44,883 nt of DNA from Actinomycetota bacterium. Lineage in GTDB: Bacteria; Actinomycetota; Acidimicrobiia; Acidimicrobiales; JAJPHE01. Numbering within the stretch: position 1 is the first letter of the stretch; each line of letters opens with the position of its first letter. Both the position numbers and the translations under genes were made by a program. The DNA is taken from NCBI GenBank assembly GCA_021325435.1, contig JAJPHE010000047.1, positions 1-44,883 on the forward strand. Reading direction: 5' to 3'. Below, one piece after another: positions 9,747-20,182 of the stretch. The notes beneath the pieces are model-generated. The model was not told the origin of the DNA. It ran no database searches and was given only the letters and a program-made list of their open reading frames with translations.

Positions 9747-10142
9747 CTAAGCCGGGGCGAAGCCGAACGCCACCGCTTCGGTTCCCTGGTCGTCGGTGCC
9801 GACGCTGTAGGTCACCAGCCGCACCGGCATGCCCAGCGTGACTTGCTCGGGGGCGGGCTCGACGTCTACGAGATTGCTCTTGACCGAACCGCCGCCGTCC
9901 AGGTCCACCACCGCCGACACGTAAGGCACCTTCACCCCCGGCGCCGCCCGCTGGACGATGGTGAAGGTGCGGACCTTTCCCTGTCCGGCCAGGGGCCGAC
10001 GGTCGAAATCGGTGCCACCGCACCGGGCGCAGGCGTTGCGCCGATCGAAGTAGAGCGCCCCACAGGACGAGCACGACTTCGCCACCAAGCGGGGCTCGTC
10101 GCCCAGCTCCAGGTAATCTACGATCGGAACGGTCGTTGACAT
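9747..10142 (-). CDS. Zn-ribbon/OB-fold protein (DUF35, thiolase or hydratase partner)
   Basis: This 131-residue protein has the rubredoxin-like zinc ribbon CSSCGALYFDRRNACARC (about residues 23-41) followed by an OB-fold with KVRTFTIVQRAAPGVKVPY. DUF35 proteins bind acyl-CoA and complex with thiolases, MaoC-like hydratases or aldolases in steroid and lipid breakdown. It lies 25 bases upstream of the thiolase on the same strand, so the two form an operon. Confidence 0.9.
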   Translation of the reverse strand: MSTTVPIVDYLELGDEPRLVAKSCSSCGALYFDRRNACARCGGTDFDRRPLAGQGKVRTFTIVQRAAPGVKVPYVSAVVDLDGGGSVKSNLVDVEPAPEQVTLGMPVRLVTYSVGTDDQGTEAVAFGFAPA

Positions 10143-10423
10143 CGCTGCCGGTGAACCTCCTGGTTGCCGGGCCGAGGCTAGCCCAGGTCGTTCCGAACCG
10201 ACCCGGCCGTCACCGGCCCCAGTACCGGCCCCCGGGCTCGACGGCGCCCCCGCCCAATATCTTGGTGGCGCGCCGCCGCCGCTGGGTATGGGGCGGCCAG
10301 AGAATTCCCTTGGCCATCGACCTCCAGCCCCCCCGCGCTTCGGAATCGTCCGGACCCGATCAACCGGTCCGGGTGGAGCGCGCCGCCGACGCCACGCCGC
10401 CTCCCCCCCGGCACGGAGTCTTC

Positions 10424-12838
10424 GTGACCTGGCTGGTCCTGTGGGTCCTGGCCGGCGTGCTGGTGGCGATTCGCGTCACCCGCTGGGCCCGCACGGTGTG
10501 GGCCCGGGTGGAGCCCCAGCTCAGGGCAGAAGCTCGCGCCGCCGCCGCCCGGGCCGCGGTGGTCGGAGCGGCCATTGCTCGGGCCGTGGCGGCCGCCGCT
10601 GCCGAGTTCGCCCGACGAACGCTCGTCTTCTGCCGGCGGCACTGGCCTACCGTCCGGCGCCGGTCATCGATTCTGGCCCGGGCAGTGGCCCGACTCTCGG
10701 CTGCCGCCCTGGTATGGATGGTGGCGGCGTCGTGGCTGGCCGTCGTGCGGACCCGACGCACGCTGTCGCGGTTGGTTCGACGGCTCGCCGCCCCCGCCAG
10801 AGGTGGTCAGCCCCTCGGCCGCCGCCTGGGCGTCGCCGGGCTGGCCATCGTCACCTTGGTCGTCGCCGGGGTCGGCGGCCTGGCCGCCGCCGTGGTCTCA
10901 GGGTCGTACGCGGCGGTGGGCGTGATCGGAGTGACGGCCCGGTTGCGACCCGGTCACATTCAGCTGCCCGCCCTGGCGCAACGATCGGTCATGTACGCGG
11001 CGGACGGCAGCGTGGTCGCCGTCCTCCATGGCGACGCCAACCGCGTGACCGTTCCCCTGTCCCACATGTCGCCCACCGTGATCGACGCCGTTGTCGACAC
11101 CGAAGACGCCGGCTTCTGGCACCACGGAGCCGTCGATGCTCGAGCGGTCGTGCGGGCCATGGCCGCCAACCTCACCGCCGGTCGGGTCCGACAGGGCGGC
11201 TCCACCATCCCCGAGCAGCTGGTCAAGAACACGCTCTACGACCCCGGCCACAGCTTCGTGGGCAAAGCCAAGGAGATGCTGCTAGCCGACCGTCTGGAAC
11301 GTCGCCTGGGCCGGTCGCGCACGCTCGAGAGATACCTGAACACCGTCTATTTCGGCGAGGGCGCATACGGCGTGGAAGCGGCGGCCGAGACGTTCTTCGG
11401 CACCACGGCCGGTCGGCTCGACGCCGCCCAAGCGGCCCTGCTGGCGGGGATGATCCAGGACCCCTCGGGTTACGACCCCTTGCACCACCCGGCGGCGGCC
11501 CGGGGCAGGCGGGCGACGGTGCTGTCGCTGATGGTCGCCCACCATCACCTGAGCGCCGCCGCGGCGCAGACGGCGGCTGTCGCGTCGCTCCCGACTCAGG
11601 TGAACCTGCCGCCGCCCGTACACGACTACTTCTCGGCCGCCGTCCAGAACGAGCTCCTGTCCGACCCGCGCCTGGGCCGGACCTACCAGGACCGCTACCG
11701 GATGCTGTTCCAGGGTGGCCTGCAGATCCACACCACCCTCGACCCCAACCTGCAGCGCGACGCCGAAGCGGCTGTGGCCGCCGGCATCCCCGCCGGATAT
11801 CACCTGACCGCCGCCCTGGCCGCCATCGACCCGTCCACCGGTGACGTGCGGGCGGTGGTCGGCGGCCCGGATTTCGGCGCCTCGCAGTTCGACGCCGCCC
11901 TGGCCGGGGCCGGGCGGCAGCCGGGCTCCTCGTTCAAGGTCTTCACCCTGGTGACCGCCCTCGAGCAGGGGCACTCGATCAACGACGTGATCGACGGGTC
12001 GACCCCCTGTTCGATCCCGAATCCGGGTGGCACGCCCAACCCGTGGACGCCGGCGAACTACGAGGGCGAGGCCTTCGGGCCGATCACCCTCGCCGAGGCC
12101 ACCGCCAAGTCGGTCAACTGCGCCTACGCCCGCCTGGCTCTGAAGGTCGGCCTGGGCGAGGTGGCCCACACGGCCCACGCCATGGGGATCACCTCCCACC
12201 TCGCGGTGGTGCCGTCCATGACCCTCGGCACCAACGACGTCACCCCGCTGCAGATGGCCTCCGCCTACGCGACCCTCGCCGACGACGGTGTGCACCACCG
12301 GCCCCACCTCGTCCAGGAGGTCCAGGCCCCGGACGGAAGAGTGATCATCGGCCCCTCGAACACGGCCAGCCGGGTCATCAGCCAGCAGATCGCCCGCGAG
12401 ACCACCCAGGCTCTCCAGCAGGTGGTCCTCTCGGGCACCGGCACGGCGGCCGCCCTGCCCGGACGCCAGGTGGCCGGCAAGACCGGTACGGCCGAGAACT
12501 ACCAGGACGCCTGGTTCGTGGGCTACACGCCCCAGCTGGCGACGGCGGTGTGGATGGGCAACCCGACCGGGGAGGTCCCCATGGTCGGAGTGCAGGGCAT
12601 CAACGTGGTCGGAGGCTCCTTCCCGGCCCATCTCTGGGCGGACTTCATGGCTCGGGCCCTGGCCTCGGCCCCCGCCGTCGACTTCCCGGCTCCCGACCCG
12701 ACCCAGGTACCCCGGCCCACGTTCATCTCCGGACCCGGATCCTCCTTCGGGTCGGTGCCGGTCCCCGGCGGCGGATCGTCGCCCCCGGTCACCACCTGGT
12801 GCTGGTCCTCGTGCGGGAGACCTGGCAAGCACCACTAA
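10424..12838 (+). CDS. Class A penicillin-binding protein (transglycosylase/transpeptidase)
   Basis: This is a bifunctional peptidoglycan synthase. A helical, Ala/Arg-rich N-terminus with hydrophobic segments (FVTWLVLWVLAGVLVAI and GVAGLAIVTLVVAGVGG) leads into the GT51 domain: EDAGFWHHGAVDARAV, GGSTIPEQLVKN and YLNTVYFGEGAYGVEAAAE. The transpeptidase has SSFK (about base 11927), SVNCAY and KTGTAENYQDAWFVGY. Start choice is uncertain. The frame is open from TTG 10136, but that overlaps the divergent DUF35 start. GTG 10424 has GGAG five bases upstream and is used here; GTG 10265 and 10373 are alternatives. The C-terminus is Pro/Gly/Ser-rich. Confidence 0.9.
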   Translation: MTWLVLWVLAGVLVAIRVTRWARTVWARVEPQLRAEARAAAARAAVVGAAIARAVAAAAAEFARRTLVFCRRHWPTVRRRSSILARAVARLSAAALVWMVAASWLAVVRTRRTLSRLVRRLAAPARGGQPLGRRLGVAGLAIVTLVVAGVGGLAAAVVSGSYAAVGVIGVTARLRPGHIQLPALAQRSVMYAADGSVVAVLHGDANRVTVPLSHMSPTVIDAVVDTEDAGFWHHGAVDARAVVRAMAANLTAGRVRQGGSTIPEQLVKNTLYDPGHSFVGKAKEMLLADRLERRLGRSRTLERYLNTVYFGEGAYGVEAAAETFFGTTAGRLDAAQAALLAGMIQDPSGYDPLHHPAAARGRRATVLSLMVAHHHLSAAAAQTAAVASLPTQVNLPPPVHDYFSAAVQNELLSDPRLGRTYQDRYRMLFQGGLQIHTTLDPNLQRDAEAAVAAGIPAGYHLTAALAAIDPSTGDVRAVVGGPDFGASQFDAALAGAGRQPGSSFKVFTLVTALEQGHSINDVIDGSTPCSIPNPGGTPNPWTPANYEGEAFGPITLAEATAKSVNCAYARLALKVGLGEVAHTAHAMGITSHLAVVPSMTLGTNDVTPLQMASAYATLADDGVHHRPHLVQEVQAPDGRVIIGPSNTASRVISQQIARETTQALQQVVLSGTGTAAALPGRQVAGKTGTAENYQDAWFVGYTPQLATAVWMGNPTGEVPMVGVQGINVVGGSFPAHLWADFMARALASAPAVDFPAPDPTQVPRPTFISGPGSSFGSVPVPGGGSSPPVTTWCWSSCGRPGKHH

Positions 12839-12839
12839 C

Positions 12840-12854
12840 CGGACGATCCGTCCG
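12840..12854 (+). terminator. Small hairpin after the PBP gene
   Basis: CGGACG-ATC-CGTCCG starts two bases after the PBP stop codon and is followed by TTTCT. The stem is short, so it may be a weak intrinsic terminator. Confidence 0.45.
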
Positions 12855-12880
12855 TTTCTGGGACCAGTTTTCTCCTGCAT

Positions 12881-12895
12881 CCAGGTCGCACCTGG
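12881..12895. promoter_or_regulatory. Palindrome upstream of the nickel/cobalt transporter
   Basis: CCAGGT-CGC-ACCTGG is a perfect 6-base inverted repeat about 40 bases before the transporter start (12938). Its place suggests an operator, possibly for a metal regulator, but no regulator gene lies nearby. Confidence 0.35.
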
Positions 12896-12937
12896 GATAC
12901 GGTGGCTCGCACGGCCAGGGCACAAGGAGCGGCGGCT

Positions 12938-14065
12938 GTGGCGCACCCGAACTCACGCCTCGCGACCCTCAGGCAGTCGCTCTCCCCCCGCGAATGGCGG
13001 CGGGTCGGGGCCATGGCCGCCCTCATCGCCGCCCTGCACATCATCGGGTGGGGCGTCATGGTGCTGGTCGTGATGCCCCACCACTACCGCCTGCTCGGAC
13101 TCGGTGTGGGTGTCACCGCCTACACCCTGGGCATGCGACACGCCTTCGACGCCGACCACATCTCGGCCATCGACAACACCACCAGGAAGCTGATGGCAGA
13201 AGGCCAACGGCCCCTCTCGGTGGGGCTGTTCTTCTCGTTGGGACACTCCAGCGTCGTGTTCGGTCTGGCGGTGGCACTGACCTTCGCCGCCCGGACTCTC
13301 CTCCACCAGGTGGGCTCCTCCGGTTCCTCGCTCCATCGGGTCACCTCCACGGTGGGGACCATGGTCTCCGGGGGGTTCCTCTACGCCATTGCCGCCATCA
13401 ACCTCGTCATCCTCGCCGGCATCGTGCGGATCTTCTCGGAGATGCGCAGGGGGGTCTTCGACGAGGCCGAGCTCGAGCGCCAACTCGACTCCCGCGGGAT
13501 GATGAACCGCTTCTTCGGCCGCCTCATGAGGACGGTGCGGGCACCGTGGCACATGTACCCGATCGGCGTCCTGTTCGGCCTGGGCTTCGACACCGCCAGC
13601 GAGGTGGCGCTGCTCGCCCTGGCCGGGGGGGCGGCGTCGACCGGGTTGCCCTTCTACGCCATCCTCTGCCTGCCGGTCCTGTTCGCCGCCGGCATGACCC
13701 TGTTCGACACCATCGACGGCTCGTTCATGAACTTCGCCTACGGATGGGCGTTCTCGCGGCCGGTGCGCAAGGTCTATTACAACGTCGTCATCACCGGCCT
13801 GTCCGTGGCCGTGGCCTTCCTGATCGGAACCCTGGAGCTGCTGTCCGTGTTGGCCAACCAGCTCCGCCTGCACGGAGGCCTCTGGTCCTACGCCGCCGGC
13901 TTCAACCTCAACGCTGCCGGGTTCTTCATCGTGGGCATGTTCGTCGTCACCTGGCTGGCCGCCCTCGCCTTCTGGAGGGTCGCCCGGGTCGAGGAGAGGT
14001 GGGGGCCGCCCGCCGTGGCGGCGATGGACCTCGAGGAGCCGGTGACGGTCGGCGCCGCCACCTGA
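12938..14065 (+). CDS. NiCoT family nickel/cobalt transporter
   Basis: This protein has 375 residues from GTG 12938, eight bases after AAGGAG; an upstream in-frame GTG at 12902 lacks a ribosome site. It is a membrane permease with about eight hydrophobic segments. The NiCoT signature RHAFDADHISAIDN (the H-x4-D-H metal-selectivity motif of helix II) is intact. LGFDTASEVALLAL and GMTLFDTIDGSFMNFAY are two further conserved family motifs. It imports Ni2+ and/or Co2+ by secondary transport, and sequence alone does not settle which. No B12 or metal-enzyme genes lie beside it. Confidence 0.93.
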   Translation: MAHPNSRLATLRQSLSPREWRRVGAMAALIAALHIIGWGVMVLVVMPHHYRLLGLGVGVTAYTLGMRHAFDADHISAIDNTTRKLMAEGQRPLSVGLFFSLGHSSVVFGLAVALTFAARTLLHQVGSSGSSLHRVTSTVGTMVSGGFLYAIAAINLVILAGIVRIFSEMRRGVFDEAELERQLDSRGMMNRFFGRLMRTVRAPWHMYPIGVLFGLGFDTASEVALLALAGGAASTGLPFYAILCLPVLFAAGMTLFDTIDGSFMNFAYGWAFSRPVRKVYYNVVITGLSVAVAFLIGTLELLSVLANQLRLHGGLWSYAAGFNLNAAGFFIVGMFVVTWLAALAFWRVARVEERWGPPAVAAMDLEEPVTVGAAT

Positions 14066-14071
14066 CCCGAC

Positions 14072-15607
14072 TCAGTCGGCCGCGGGCACCGGCTGGGGAG
14101 GCGGGGGTCCGACGTAGCGGGCGCTGGGCCGGATGATGCGGTTGTCGGCGGCCTGCTCGAGGATGTGGGCGCACCAGCCGATCACCCGGCTGGCGGCGAA
14201 GGTCGGGGTGAAGAGGCTGCGCTCGAGGCCGCACTGCTCCATGACCACCCCGGCGTAGAACTCGACGTTGGTGTGGAGCTCTCGACCGGGCTTCAACTCG
14301 GCGAGGACGGTGAGGATGGTGCGCTCGACGCTCTCGGCGAACTCCACCAGCGGGCCGCCGAAGGAGCGGGCGATGTCGCGCAGCATGGCCGAGCGGGGGT
14401 CGTAGGTCCGGTAGACGGGGTGGCCGAAGCCCATGATCCGCTCACCGCGGGCCACCGCGTCACGCACCCATGCCTCGGTGCGGCTCGGATCCCCGATGGC
14501 GTCGAGGGTGTCCAGGGCGCGGCTCGGCGCGCCACCGTGCAGCGGGCCCGACAACGACCCGATGGCGGCGACCACCGCCGACCCGAGGTCCGCCCCGGTG
14601 GACGTCACCACCCGGGCGGTGAACGTCGACGCGTTGAAGCCGTGGTCGATGGTCGAGATCTGATAGCTCTCGATGGCACGGCAGCGCCGGTCGTCGGGTG
14701 CCTCCCCGGACAGCATGTAGAGGTAGTTGGCGGTGTGACCCAGCCTTTCGTCCGGTGCCACCGGCTCGAGGCCCCGCGCCATCCGGGCCAGGGCGGCGAT
14801 GGCCGTCGGCGTGACCGCCGCTACCCGCAGCGCATTGCTGGTGAGCTCCTCCGGGCCGGCATCGATGGACGGCCGGAAGCCCTCCTCGGCGGCGAGCAGG
14901 GACAGGACGGTGCGCAGGCCCATCAACGGGCCATCCGAAGCGCGGGCGACGGCGGGCAGGGCCCGCATGACCGCATCGGGCAGCTGGCGCAGCGCAGCCA
15001 CCCGAGCCCGGAACGCCCGCTGCTCGGAGGGGTCCGGAAGCTCGCCGAAGGTCAGCAGATACCAGACGTCCTCGAGCGATCTCTTCTCGGCCAGCTCGAC
15101 GGCGGAGTACTGGCGGTAGTGGTAAAAGCCCTCGAGGCCCCGCACGTCCCCCACTGACGTCTCGGCCACCACCACGCCCTTCAGCCCCCGGGGCACGTCG
15201 GTGAACGATCCGGCCACCGGCCTCAGCTGGGCGATTCCCATGAGGTCGCGCATGGACACGACGCCTTTGACCTCGTCGCCGGCGACGACCGGTATGTGGC
15301 GGTAGCGGCGGTCGGCCAGGCTCGTCCAGGCTTCAGCCACCTCGACGTCGGGGCCGACGCAGTCCGGTCGGGGGGTCATCCAGGCCCCCACCAGGGACTG
15401 TTCGGGCTGGGCGCCGGCGGCGGCCGCCCGCACCAGGTCGCGCTCGGTGAGGATGCCGAGGGGCCTCCCGCCCTCCACCACGACCACCGAGCCCACCCCA
15501 GCCCCGCTCATCGTCTCCCCCGCCGCCCGCAAGGTGTCGTCGGTGCGAGCGGTTACCGCCGGACTGGTCATCAGCTCTGCCACCGTCCGGATCGTCTGAG
15601 TCCCCAT
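14072..15607 (-). CDS. Citrate synthase with N-terminal CBS-domain pair
   Basis: This 511-residue fusion starts at ATG 15607 (GTG 15610 is also possible) behind AGGGAGG. Residues about 5-125 are two CBS motifs (VGSVVVVEGGRPLGILTERD; YRHIPVVAGDEVKGVVSMRD), normally adenine-nucleotide sensors. Residues about 140-505 are a citrate synthase: GPLHGGAPSRAL and MGFGHPVYRTYDPR supply the two active-site histidines. The usual catalytic Asp of NVDFY reads Glu (LHTNVEFYAG). The C-terminal IGWCAHILEQ and RPSARYVGPP are typical. It is divergent from a second citrate synthase fused to a DNA-binding domain. It may be a citrate or 2-methylcitrate synthase. Confidence 0.9.
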   Translation of the reverse strand: MGTQTIRTVAELMTSPAVTARTDDTLRAAGETMSGAGVGSVVVVEGGRPLGILTERDLVRAAAAGAQPEQSLVGAWMTPRPDCVGPDVEVAEAWTSLADRRYRHIPVVAGDEVKGVVSMRDLMGIAQLRPVAGSFTDVPRGLKGVVVAETSVGDVRGLEGFYHYRQYSAVELAEKRSLEDVWYLLTFGELPDPSEQRAFRARVAALRQLPDAVMRALPAVARASDGPLMGLRTVLSLLAAEEGFRPSIDAGPEELTSNALRVAAVTPTAIAALARMARGLEPVAPDERLGHTANYLYMLSGEAPDDRRCRAIESYQISTIDHGFNASTFTARVVTSTGADLGSAVVAAIGSLSGPLHGGAPSRALDTLDAIGDPSRTEAWVRDAVARGERIMGFGHPVYRTYDPRSAMLRDIARSFGGPLVEFAESVERTILTVLAELKPGRELHTNVEFYAGVVMEQCGLERSLFTPTFAASRVIGWCAHILEQAADNRIIRPSARYVGPPPPQPVPAAD

Positions 15608-15633
15608 CACAACCTCCCTGACGTTCGCTCCGA

Positions 15634-15663
15634 ATGATCCTCAGGATGATCGAGGTTGTCAAT
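15634..15663 (-). promoter_or_regulatory. Probable promoter/operator between the divergent citrate synthases
   Basis: On the minus strand TTGACA (15663-15658), 17 bases and GATCAT (15640-15635) form a candidate promoter for the CBS-citrate synthase. The palindrome ATCCT-C-AGGAT (15637-15647) overlaps the -10 box and would be a natural target for the helix-turn-helix domain of the divergent protein. Both assignments are inferred from position and symmetry. Confidence 0.4.
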
Positions 15664-15692
15664 GTTGATCCACTGTCAACTACCATGAGTAG

Positions 15693-16958
15693 ATGGTCGA
15701 TGGAAGCCACTGGATGACCTCGACCGAGGCGGCGGCCAAGCTCGGCGTGAAGCCCCAGACCCTCTACGCCTATGTGAGCCGAGGCCTGTTGAGCAGCCAT
15801 CCCGCCCCCGGGGGCCGGGCCAGCCGCTTCGACCGAGCCGAGGTCGAGCGGCTGCTCGCCCGCCCCCGCGTGGGGGCCAGGGCCGGCGTGCTCGAGATCG
15901 TGGTCGACACCGAGCTGACTCTCATCGACCCGATCGGACGGCTCTACTACCGCGGGGTCGACGCCACCTGGGCGTGTGGTCATCGCAGCTATGAGTGGGT
16001 GGCCGAATGGCTTTGGACGGCCCTACGCGACGAGCCGCCGACCTGGCAGGCGACGCCGGCGGCGCTGAGGGTGGGATCGGCGGCCCAGGACGCTCTGCCG
16101 AAAGGCGCATCCCTCGTCGAGCGCATGCGGGTCGTCGCCGCCGCCGTGGGCACGGTCGACCCTCTGCGCCACGACCGGCGTCCGGAGGCGGTGGTGGCCA
16201 CCGGCCGGGCCCTGATCGCCGCCTTGGTCGACTCCCTGCCCGGCCCGTCGTCGGACGCCGTCCTACGGCTGGGCTCGCGCCGGCGGGAGGCGTCCGTGGC
16301 CGCCCGGCTCTGGTCGCGCCTCACCGGTGCCGAGGCGACGCCGGCCCGCCTCCGGGCCATGAACGCCGCCCTGGCCTTGATGGCCGACCACGAGCTGGCC
16401 GCGTCGACCCTCGCCGCGCGGGCGGCCGCATCCACCTGGGCTGACCCCTACCTGGTCGTGATGGCCGGGCTGGGCGCCATCGGCGGGCCGCTGCACGGGG
16501 GGACCTCGGAGGCGATGATGTCCCTCTTCAGCGACGTGGCTGACGGGGTGCCCGCCGACGAGGCCCTGGGCGAGCGGTTGCGCACCGCCGGCTCCGTGCC
16601 CGGCTTCGGTCACCCCGTCTACACCGGCCCGGACCCGAGGGCCACCGCCCTGCTGGCCGCCCTGCGCCAATCGCGCCCCCCCGCCGAGCGGTGGCGCACC
16701 GTCCAGGCCGTTCTCGACGTCATGGGCGGGCGCCCGTCGCCTCCGCCCAACGTCGACTTCGCCCTGGCCGCCATGGCCCACGCTTACGGCATGGGGCGCG
16801 GCGCCGCCGAGGCCATTGCCGCCTTGGCCCGGTGCGCCGGCTGGATCGCCCACGCCATCGAGGAGTATCCGCACCGACTCCGGTTCCGCCCCCGGGCCGC
16901 CTACGTCGGCCCCAGCCCCTCTCTGCGGGCGGAAGGAGCGGCGGACGACCCAGGGTGA
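15693..16958 (+). CDS. Citrate synthase with N-terminal helix-turn-helix (MerR/excisionase-type) domain
   Basis: This 421-residue protein begins at ATG 15693. Residues about 8-55 are a DNA-binding domain of the excisionase/MerR type: TSTEAAAKLGVKPQTLYAYV, then RGLLSSHPAPGGRASRFDRA. Residues 70-410 are citrate synthase: GRLYYRGVDA, IGGPLHGGTSEAMM, GFGHPVYTGPDPRA and PPNVDFALAAMA, with both His and the Asp in place. This architecture is known in actinobacteria. The physical link of a metabolic enzyme to a DNA-binding domain suggests a metabolite-responsive regulator, perhaps of its divergent neighbour. Confidence 0.9.
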   Translation: MVDGSHWMTSTEAAAKLGVKPQTLYAYVSRGLLSSHPAPGGRASRFDRAEVERLLARPRVGARAGVLEIVVDTELTLIDPIGRLYYRGVDATWACGHRSYEWVAEWLWTALRDEPPTWQATPAALRVGSAAQDALPKGASLVERMRVVAAAVGTVDPLRHDRRPEAVVATGRALIAALVDSLPGPSSDAVLRLGSRRREASVAARLWSRLTGAEATPARLRAMNAALALMADHELAASTLAARAAASTWADPYLVVMAGLGAIGGPLHGGTSEAMMSLFSDVADGVPADEALGERLRTAGSVPGFGHPVYTGPDPRATALLAALRQSRPPAERWRTVQAVLDVMGGRPSPPPNVDFALAAMAHAYGMGRGAAEAIAALARCAGWIAHAIEEYPHRLRFRPRAAYVGPSPSLRAEGAADDPG

Positions 16959-16968
16959 CCCGGGCGGC

Positions 16969-18072
16969 TCACCCAGCCCGGATCTCGCCCTCCTCCAGCT
17001 GCATCCGCTCGTATTCGGTGCCGGTGTCCTCGAACGTCTCGAACTGCAGCACGCCGAGCTCACCGAACTTCTGGCGCAGCCAGCCGTCACCAGCGTCGAG
17101 CAGGCCCAGCTTCTTTAGGTTGGGCACGATCTTGGAGAACAGGACCTTGCGGAACTCCATCTGGACCGGGTTGTGCAGCATGATCTCGCTGCATTCACGC
17201 ACCGGCAGACCCAGCTCCTCCCACACCTCCTGGCTGAGGAACCGGTCGCGCATGCGCAAGGCCGCCTCGTAGCAGAACTCCTGGCGCTCGCGGATTTCGG
17301 CCCCGGTCAGGTCGCGGTACGCCTCCTGGAGGGAAAGGACGCCGAACCCGACGTGGCGGGCCTCGTCCGACATCACGTACCGGGTGATCTGCTTGAGGAG
17401 GGGATCGGGGCTCATCTGGTACTGGAAGCCGAAGGCGGCCAGAGCCAGGCCCTCGATCATGATCTGCATTCCGAGGTAGGTGAAGTCCCACCGCGGATCG
17501 GAGACCACCGCGTCGAGCAGGTCGCGCAGATGCACGTTGATGGGGAACTCCCACTCGAGCTTCTCGCGCAGGTACTTGGAGTACACCTCGACGTGGCGGG
17601 CCTCGTCCATCACCTGGGTCGCCGCGTAGTACTTGGCGTCGATCCACGGGACCGACTGCACGATCTTCGCCGTGCACACGAGGGCGCCCTGCTCCCCGTG
17701 CATGAACTGGGAGAGGGTCCAGGCGATGCTGGCGTGACCGAGCCGGGCCCGCTCCTCGGCGTTCAGCTTCCCCAACGGTCCCTCGTCGGTGGCACCCAGC
17801 GTGTTGAGCGGGTTGTTCGGATCGCGGGCCAGGTCGATCTGGCCTCCCACCGACCAGTCGATGTCAGTCTGGGCGTCCCACTGGGAGTGCTTCGCCTTCT
17901 CGTAGAGCTTGTCCAGGGCGGGACGGGCGCCCTTCTCGTAGTCCCACGTGAAGGCGGTGGGGAAGGCGCTCTCGACCTCTCGGATGGCTTCGCGCTTCTC
18001 CGCCTCGGAGACGGTGCGCGACAGCTCCTCGATGTCTCCGGAGCGGATCTCAGCGGGGTCCACGACGGCCAC
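16969..18072 (-). CDS. Ferritin-like diiron oxygenase/oxidase family protein
   Basis: This 367-residue protein starts at GTG 18072, with GAGGAGG upstream. It has the repeated carboxylate motifs of a four-helix diiron site: SQFMHGEQGALVC, then VMDEARHVEVYSKYL, IMIEGLALAAFGF and VMSDEARHVGFGVLS (two E-x-x-H ligand pairs). It resembles ribonucleotide-reductase-R2-like and AurF-like oxygenases of actinobacteria and has no obvious radical Tyr that can be assigned with confidence. An acyl-CoA synthetase is encoded 136 bases upstream on the same strand, so the substrate may be an activated acid (inference). Confidence 0.8.
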   Translation of the reverse strand: MAVVDPAEIRSGDIEELSRTVSEAEKREAIREVESAFPTAFTWDYEKGARPALDKLYEKAKHSQWDAQTDIDWSVGGQIDLARDPNNPLNTLGATDEGPLGKLNAEERARLGHASIAWTLSQFMHGEQGALVCTAKIVQSVPWIDAKYYAATQVMDEARHVEVYSKYLREKLEWEFPINVHLRDLLDAVVSDPRWDFTYLGMQIMIEGLALAAFGFQYQMSPDPLLKQITRYVMSDEARHVGFGVLSLQEAYRDLTGAEIRERQEFCYEAALRMRDRFLSQEVWEELGLPVRECSEIMLHNPVQMEFRKVLFSKIVPNLKKLGLLDAGDGWLRQKFGELGVLQFETFEDTGTEYERMQLEEGEIRAG

Positions 18073-18152
18073 ACCAGCCTCCTCGTCGATGGCGCCAGCG
18101 GTCGCGGCGCGTCTCCAACTTAGGGAAATCTAGGCGGAGACTGACATGACCG

Positions 18153-18162
18153 TCACCGGTGA
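18153..18162. repeat. Short palindrome upstream of the diiron gene
   Basis: TCACCGGTGA is a perfect 10-base palindrome in the 136-base gap between the acyl-CoA synthetase stop (18209) and the diiron gene start. It could be an operator, but such short GC-rich palindromes also arise by chance. Confidence 0.25.
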
Positions 18163-18208
18163 TGGGCTCCCGGTCGGTATCGCCCGCTATGTCGGCTCCG
18201 TCGACCCC

Positions 18209-19771
18209 TCAGTGAACCCGGCGCTCCCCTGCTCCCCAGTAGCGGGCTCGCAGGACCTTCTTGTCGGCCTTGCCCACCGGGGTCAGAGGCAGGGCATCGA
18301 CGAAGTCGACCGACTTGGGCGCCTGTATCGGCCCTTTGCGCTCACGGACCAGCGCGACCAGCTCCTCGGCCTGGGCCGCGCCACCCGGTCTCAGAACCAC
18401 GAGGGCCTTGACCGCCTCCCCCCATTTGTCGTCGGGCACTCCGATCACCGCGGCAGCCGACACCGCCGGGTGGGTGCTGAGGACGTCTTCGATCTCGCGG
18501 GGGAAGATGTTGAACCCCCCGCTCACGATCATGTCCTTCTTGCGGTCGACGATGGTGTAGAAGCCGTCGTCGCCCCGCACGGCCACGTCACCGGTCCGCA
18601 ACCAGCCCCCGGCCAGGGTGGTGTCGGTGAGCTCGGGCTGCTTCCAGTAGCCGGCCATGACCCCCTGGCCCTGGACGCAGATCTCCCCCGGCTCCCCGTC
18701 GGGCACGGGCTGGTCGTCGTCGCCGAGGACCGCGACGCGCACCCCGGGAATCGGCCGGCCGCACGAGGCCAGTCGGTCGAGATCGTGGCGGAGATGGTCG
18801 GACTTCCACAAGGAGGTGGTTATGCCGGCGCACTCGGTCTGCCCGTACAGCTGGCAGAAGACGGGACCGATCCGGTCGATCGCCTCGGCCAACCTGCTGG
18901 GCGAGATTGGGGAGGCCCCGTACATGACGGTGGCGAGGGTGGAGAGGTCGGCCCCATCGAGATCGGGATGGTCGAGTACGGCGTAGATCATGGTGGGCAC
19001 CAACAGCGCCAGCGAGGCCCGATGGGCGCTCACCCCGGCCAGCCACGCTCCGGGGTCGAATCCCCGTTGGAGGACGACGGTGCCCCCCGCCATCAGGGTC
19101 GGGACGATGAGCATGCCGGCTGCGTGAGAGATCGGGGCGCAGGCCAGGTAACGACGCTCCGCTGGCAGGTCCCATCCCAGCGCCACCCCGTACACCATCT
19201 GCACCAGGGCCCGCTCCGGCAGCATCACGGCCTTGGGCACGCCTGTCGTGCCGCCGGTGTACAGCAGATAGCCGATGTCCTCCGGGCCGTGGGGACCCGG
19301 CCCCAGCCCCGAGGGATCCACGGAAGGAGCGGCGACGGAGATGTCCTCTCCGACCCCGGCCGGACCGAAGGTGAAGACGGCCTCGACGCTGGCAGCCCGC
19401 TCCAGGAGCTCTCCGGCCCGCTCCGAGTAGGCCGGGTCGACGAACAGGTAGCGCAGCTCGGCGTCGTCGCAGGCGTACAGGTGGTCCTCGAGGGATCCCA
19501 GCGGGTGGAGGGCGGTGTAGCGGCCACCGGACAGCGGCGCCGCCGTCTGGGCCAGCCACACCTCGGGCCGGTTGGGAGACAGGACGCCCACGCCGTCCCC
19601 GGGCTGCAGTCCCCGCGAGCGCAGCAAGGCCACCCAGCCTGCGAGGAGCCCGGCCACCCGGCGGTAGCTGAGCTGGCGGCCGTCCTGCTCGAAGGCCACC
19701 CGGTCGGGGAAGCGCTCGAGGACACTGACCACCAGCTCGCTGTAGGTGGTGGGGCGGTGCAGGTCACTCAT
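18209..19771 (-). CDS. Acyl-CoA synthetase (AMP-forming, FadD-like)
   Basis: This 520-residue class I adenylate-forming enzyme uses ATG 19771; in-frame ATGs at 19822 and 19831 are possible but would run into the promoter region of the divergent STAS gene. Motifs in order are YLLYTGGTTGVPKAVML (P-loop-like A3), QLYGQTECAGI (A5), GWLRTGDVAV (A7), then DRKKDMIVSGGFNIFPREIE (A8) and the terminal TPVGKADKKVLR with the catalytic Lys (A10). It activates a carboxylic acid as acyl-AMP and then acyl-CoA. Chain length cannot be inferred. Confidence 0.92.
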   Translation of the reverse strand: MSDLHRPTTYSELVVSVLERFPDRVAFEQDGRQLSYRRVAGLLAGWVALLRSRGLQPGDGVGVLSPNRPEVWLAQTAAPLSGGRYTALHPLGSLEDHLYACDDAELRYLFVDPAYSERAGELLERAASVEAVFTFGPAGVGEDISVAAPSVDPSGLGPGPHGPEDIGYLLYTGGTTGVPKAVMLPERALVQMVYGVALGWDLPAERRYLACAPISHAAGMLIVPTLMAGGTVVLQRGFDPGAWLAGVSAHRASLALLVPTMIYAVLDHPDLDGADLSTLATVMYGASPISPSRLAEAIDRIGPVFCQLYGQTECAGITTSLWKSDHLRHDLDRLASCGRPIPGVRVAVLGDDDQPVPDGEPGEICVQGQGVMAGYWKQPELTDTTLAGGWLRTGDVAVRGDDGFYTIVDRKKDMIVSGGFNIFPREIEDVLSTHPAVSAAAVIGVPDDKWGEAVKALVVLRPGGAAQAEELVALVRERKGPIQAPKSVDFVDALPLTPVGKADKKVLRARYWGAGERRVH

Positions 19772-19876
19772 CGCCTCGGCGACCGTACCAGCCGGCGCGC
19801 TGTAACGGCCGGGCCCGGTCATACGATTCATTAGTCGGTGCCGCCGCGGACCTGCCGCGCAAGCCGGGGAAGGACC

Positions 19877-20182
19877 ATGGAGCTGCTGACCGTGGAGGTC
19901 GAGGATCGCTCCGACCCGGTCATAGTGCGCGTCAGGGGCGAAGCCGACATCGCCACCGCCGCCGATCTCGCCGACGGCCTGTCTGTGGTGGGCGCCAAGA
20001 GGCCCGCCCTGGTCGTTCTTGAGCTCTCCGAGCTGGCCTTCATCGACTGCTCGGGAGTGGATGCCATCCTGGGCGCTCGGCATTCACTGGCCGAGGCCGG
20101 CTCCGATCTCGTCTTGCGCTGCCCCACCCCGGCCGTGGCTCGGGTGCTCGACCTGCTGTCCGTCGATTACGTGACGAGCTGA
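19877..20182 (+). CDS. STAS domain protein (anti-sigma factor antagonist-like)
   Basis: This protein has 101 residues from ATG 19877 after GGGAAGG. It is a single STAS fold: VIVRVRGEADIATAADLADGL, then VLELSELAFIDCSGVDAILG, where the Asp-Cys-Ser-Gly is the SpoIIAA-type phosphorylation loop with the acceptor Ser. No partner RsbW-like kinase or sigma factor is adjacent. It is convergent with the next gene (3-base gap). Confidence 0.88.
   Translation: MELLTVEVEDRSDPVIVRVRGEADIATAADLADGLSVVGAKRPALVVLELSELAFIDCSGVDAILGARHSLAEAGSDLVLRCPTPAVARVLDLLSVDYVTS

Follow-up and report, generated by a model that had tools for sequence, protein, structure and literature searches.

Citrate synthase gates the entry of carbon into the TCA cycle. 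In Bacillus subtilis, the LysR-type regulator CitR represses the divergent citA gene, an arrangement that we take to be the functional analogue of the circuit proposed here, as both pair a CitA-type secondary citrate synthase with a divergent, dedicated regulator. However, CitR is unrelated to citrate synthase, whereas the candidate regulator at our locus is itself a citrate synthase paralogue. Enzyme-derived or bifunctional regulators ('trigger enzymes') such as PutA, BirA, and NadR provide a second parallel, combining a DNA-binding domain and an enzyme domain that retains its active site with a near single-target regulon, but to our knowledge none of the three is built upon citrate synthase. 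In the mostly open literature that we searched, we did not find a helix-turn-helix (HTH)-fused citrate synthase described as a DNA-binding regulator.

A related arrangement has been reported in Streptomyces coelicolor, where SCO5831 and SCO5832 (citA3/citA4) are described as putative citrate synthases and MtrA binds in vitro within the sco5831-sco5832 intergenic region (PMC12323332). As at our locus, two citrate synthase-like genes share one intergenic region, and the HTH-fused form appears to be common in that genus. The accessible part of the published description mentions neither an HTH nor a TCAAYNTTGA element, and does not cast either protein as a regulator (PMC12323332). SCO5831 and SCO5832 are, by inference, most likely the orthologous pair.

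Here we describe a divergent pair in which one citrate synthase is fused to tandem CBS domains (CBS-CS) and the other to an N-terminal HTH (HTH-CS). From comparison of orthologous loci, we consider it likely that HTH-CS acts as a transcription factor derived from an enzyme and dedicated to nearly a single target, the gene of a secondary citrate-forming enzyme, and that it is autoregulated in most lineages.

Results

The window, by which we mean the whole 44,883-nucleotide stretch analysed, is contig C151, one of the 160 contigs of a 4.0 Mb genome whose nearest relatives by protein comparison include an Acidimicrobiales MAG. An earlier note on this DNA had described two divergent citrate synthase genes with an 82-base gap, and an open reading frame check reproduced both genes and their spacing. 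CBS-CS, the predicted target, lies on the minus strand (15610-14072; 512 amino acids, GTG start), while HTH-CS, the predicted regulator, lies on the plus strand (15693-16958; 421 amino acids). A third citrate synthase in this genome is apparently divided between contigs C89 and C3. The genes that flank the pair within 10136-20083, encoding a bifunctional penicillin-binding protein, a NicO nickel transporter, a weakly matched AurF-like diiron N-oxygenase, and an AMP-binding acyl-CoA ligase, look unrelated.

Both domain fusions read by the note were recovered with Pfam. CBS-CS matched CBS (PF00571) in two stretches and Citrate_synt (PF00285) at 370.7 bits (gathering threshold 27), and therefore has the two domains of a CBS-pair nucleotide sensor, with nucleotide binding itself only predicted. 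The best PDB match for its catalytic domain was B. subtilis CitA (2c6x, 320 bits), with which it shares a glutamate in place of the catalytic aspartate (NVEFY). The same position is a glutamate (NVE[FYWL]) in every complete CitA-type partner of HTH-CS (partners in L036-L118). Among NCBIfam models, CBS-CS exceeded the cut-off for the subfamily PRK12350 alone (336.6 versus 332), and neither CBS-CS nor HTH-CS reached the cut-off of any citrate synthase equivalog, including GltA, CitZ, and PrpC.

HTH-CS combines a BldC/MerR-like HTH (residues ~7-57) with a citrate synthase domain (residues ~70-408). Its N-terminus matched HTH_17 (PF12728; 1.2e-9, 38.8 bits against a gathering threshold of 27) and MerR_1 (5.9e-6, 26.7 versus 21.6 bits), and the remainder matched Citrate_synt (PF00285) at 198.7 bits (threshold 27). 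BldC and MerR-type proteins resemble HTH-CS in their HTH family and, as predicted for HTH-CS, in using DNA with multiple half-sites, and BldC (6ama) was the best, albeit weak (E 0.14), PDB sequence match of the HTH. HTH-CS differs from BldC in that its HTH is fused to an enzyme, and at 25.5 bits it falls below the NCBIfam HTH_BldC cut-off of 77, outside the BldC family proper. Seven catalytic or substrate-binding residues, including H268, H307, D355, R316, R380, and R399, were conserved in 55-56 of 56 HTH-CS proteins, with the catalytic aspartate retained in all 56. In contrast, the loop around the catalytic histidine, GPLHGG, is fixed in the partners and drifts in HTH-CS. The fusion forms one clade in our tree (support 1.0) and, as read from this tree, is of single origin. 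A Foldseek search with an AlphaFold model of HTH-CS (mean pLDDT 81, built from 8 sequences, in which the position of the HTH relative to the citrate synthase dimer is untrustworthy) returned the citrate synthase fold, matching citrate and methylcitrate synthases. None of the PDB citrate synthase matches listed carried a DNA-binding annotation.

Reading the HTH-CS upstream regions side by side gave a consensus, TCAAYNTTGA-N4-8-TCAA. In the window this operator-like element is TCAATGTTGATCCACTGTCAA (15659-15679, plus strand), with half-sites TCAA, TTGA, and TCAA. The core motif occurred within 250 bases upstream in 47 of 56 HTH-CS loci, compared to 0.025 expected from Markov shuffles, and 44 of those 47 also had the third half-site. 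Five of the nine core-less loci carried variants with 0-1 mismatches to the core, and the Embleya and Nonomuraea loci, which lay outside the motif-defining set, both had the core. These two came from annotated plasmid records, which gave no gene names at the matching positions. Conservation of this kind implies that some protein binds the element; it does not by itself single out HTH-CS, which we presume to be the binder.

The element is placed where a bound protein could affect both genes. The predicted CBS-CS promoter (15634-15662, minus strand) consists of a -35 box TTGACA (15662-15657), a 17-nt spacer, and a -10 box GATCAT (15639-15634), with the -35 box overlapping the left half-site. On the plus strand, a putative HTH-CS -10 box, TACCAT (15681-15686), begins 1 nt past the element, and because the ATG start codon follows 6 nt downstream, the HTH-CS transcript is probably leaderless. 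Across the 47 core-containing loci, the left half-site read on the minus strand as TTGACA or TTGATA, a -35 box for the target, in 30, and a -10-like hexamer lay 16-18 nt from it in 37, versus 3.1% of control positions, a contrast that is overstated since the control was lenient and mostly GC-rich coding DNA. In 31 of the 47, a plus-strand -10-like hexamer lay at the third half-site or just beyond it. This predicted geometry favours repression of the target together with autoregulation.

The earlier note had called for a survey of how widely the pair is conserved. Of 59 relatives, about a quarter carried HTH-CS, as did roughly 40 of the 396 genomes in a phylum-wide sample, and in most cases it lay beside a divergent citrate synthase. 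Loci in which the pair is broken were informative. In Actinopolymorpha (L035/L177), the two genes converge, and the genome has a single copy of the element, upstream of the partner citrate synthase. In another genome (L096 in G132), the genes stand 1 kb apart, and only the partner has the element. HTH-CS and its partner are unlinked in G006, with the element at both. The partner is also unlinked in G236, from a Streptomyces-like genus, where it lacks the element and HTH-CS retains it. In two further Streptomyces-like genomes, G081 and G247 (L085 and L086), HTH-CS sits beside a GTPase-like gene with neither citrate synthase partner nor operator. Mostly, then, the element stays with the target gene when the pair is split. 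Given these exceptions, HTH-CS may have another role in G081, G247, and G236.

These loci bear on whether HTH-CS could instead be chiefly a catalytically active isozyme of citrate synthase or 2-methylcitrate synthase, with an HTH that serves self-feedback or is vestigial and a partner that is incidentally controlled through shared promoter DNA. The invariance of all catalytic and oxaloacetate-binding residues fits such an isozyme, as do the two Streptomyces-like genomes with HTH-CS but without operator or partner. Incidental control through shared DNA, however, does not explain an operator at the partner only (L035 and L096) or at both of two unlinked genes (G006), and drift in the GPLHGG loop of HTH-CS would be expected if ligand binding outweighs turnover. 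On balance, we judge a primarily catalytic role to be unlikely.

If a regulator with a broad regulon were responsible, the element should recur throughout the genome. The 4.0 Mb home genome contained exactly one match, at this locus, compared to 0 in the control. Among genomes that encode HTH-CS, a strict pattern matched 17 of 37, compared to 1 of 35 among those that lack it. In most HTH-CS genomes that the strict pattern missed, a wider pattern matched at the HTH-CS locus, nearly always as the sole genomic match. At CBS-CS loci of relatives without HTH-CS, the element was absent from all 16 that had usable upstream DNA. The few off-locus matches (in G044, G168, G006, G018, and G014) were considered as signs of a global regulon and set aside, because the genes near them are unrelated and the matches appear to be due to chance.

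It is therefore very unlikely that the element is the site of MtrA, GlnR, CRP, or a similar global regulator, for which recurrence would be expected rather than one copy in most genomes, restricted to those with HTH-CS. MtrA binding between the two S. coelicolor genes speaks for such a regulator (PMC12323332), as does a study cited by title in PMC11076491, according to which three Saccharopolyspora citrate synthase genes respond to GlnR, DasR, and CRP. The published MtrA site, TTGACTTAACTGTCCA, does not match the element, though, and an exact copy is absent from our loci. As MtrA binds in vitro near the site in S. coelicolor, other regulators would nonetheless be expected to act at this intergenic region as well.

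At the sequence level, then, a conserved, predicted operator lies at both the target and the putative regulator's own gene and is restricted to genomes that encode HTH-CS, which is the pattern of a dedicated local regulator. That this previously unremarked motif accompanies the pair in many Actinobacteria strongly suggests that HTH-CS turns the partner gene, and usually its own gene, on and off. Comparative evidence thus lends strong support to the proposal in the earlier note that an HTH-bearing enzyme uses the intergenic region to control the gene divergent from its own, but moves the site to 15659-15679, away from the palindrome that the note had chosen.

CBS domains occurred in just 7 of the ~45 citrate synthase partners seen, and we rejected the idea that the circuit requires them, since CBS-less partners are the majority. 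The nucleotide-sensing element of the note's model is accordingly not the conserved feature, and CBS-CS stands alone in the 16 operator-less relatives. At four loci (L097, L098, L110, and L112), a small open reading frame lies between the operator and a CitA-type citrate synthase, on the citrate synthase strand. Its product at L097 is a cupin (PF07883, E 2.4e-15), which suggests a cupin-citrate synthase operon in these lineages.

At six loci, the partner is not a citrate synthase of this family at all. The gene divergent from HTH-CS encodes an HMGL-like enzyme of ~407-425 amino acids in Nonomuraea, in G071, in G099, and in two species of Actinomadura, with the element between the genes. The HMGL-like protein of G135 is of another type, with 30% identity to these enzymes, and the element is retained there as well. 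The HMGL-like partners (L037, L038, L084, L094, L116, and L223) thus comprise two subfamilies, matching PF00682 at 146.6 and 79.5 bits; the L223 protein is 88% identical to that of L037. All fell under every NCBIfam equivalog cut-off, the best model being the homocitrate synthase nifV, also below its cut-off. Re-citrate synthase is related to HMGL-like homocitrate and isopropylmalate synthases (PMC12016533). The HMGL-like partners share the DRE-TIM superfamily with Re-citrate and homocitrate synthases, while their substrate is only predicted, and identification as Re-type citrate synthases is attractive but unproven.

The non-homologous neighbour at six loci weakens a further suggestion of the earlier note, in which the two polypeptides form a mixed hetero-oligomer and their pairing reflects stoichiometry instead of transcriptional control. 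Citrate synthase is obligately dimeric, its subunits share an active site, and the glutamate of the partners and the aspartate of HTH-CS at the catalytic acid could complement each other. Against this, the DNA element is kept where the partner is unlinked or convergent, and many relatives have CBS-CS without HTH-CS, leaving a mixed oligomer with an even slighter chance than a global regulator.

The palindrome ATCCTcAGGAT (15637-15647) exists and overlaps a plausible CBS-CS -10 box, as the note had stated, but it has next to no prospect of being the operator: the 106 perfect 5-N-5 palindromes in the window amount to 0.19 per 82 bases, a chance level, and of the 56 orthologous upstream regions, only that in the window contains the sequence, with the other 55 lacking it. 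The note had named such a lack of conservation beforehand as part of its refutation.

Discussion

Our preferred reading, HTH-CS as a dedicated transcription factor, leads to a simple mechanism. The HTH of HTH-CS would bind the TCAAYNTTGA-N4-8-TCAA operator and thereby control the divergent gene for a citrate-forming enzyme, here CBS-CS, and in most lineages also its own. A dimer seated on the element would block the -35 box of the target and occlude RNA polymerase. Repression, rather than activation, is the likely default because the left half-site coincides with the target -35 box and the HTH-CS -10 box often follows the right end.

The intact active site, with which catalysis may persist, would most likely serve as a sensor for oxaloacetate, acetyl-CoA, or citrate. 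Citrate synthase undergoes a known open/closed domain movement, and ligand-driven movement of this kind would alter how far apart the dimer's two HTHs stand or how tightly they bind. More tentatively, and with somewhat less confidence than would make it probable, we propose that a citrate synthase has been turned into the transcription factor of its own pathway, with oxaloacetate, acetyl-CoA, or citrate sensed at the still-intact active site and closure of the domains governing how the protein binds DNA at a single dedicated operator. The circuit would then follow the reaction and not an enzyme fold, because its target has been swapped twice between citrate synthases of the Si type and HMGL-like enzymes, possibly of the Re-citrate synthase type, with regulator and operator kept.

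If correct, a citrate synthase paralogue that regulates from one operator would add a new scaffold to the enzyme-derived transcription factors, and would explain the paired 'extra' citrate synthases of the citA3/citA4 type in Streptomyces and other Actinobacteria. It could also provide a genetically encoded sensor of acetyl-CoA, oxaloacetate, or citrate with a defined operator of ~21 bp. Finally, the swap to a non-homologous target gives the HMGL-like group a testable function, and its members are candidate aerobic Re-citrate or homocitrate synthases.
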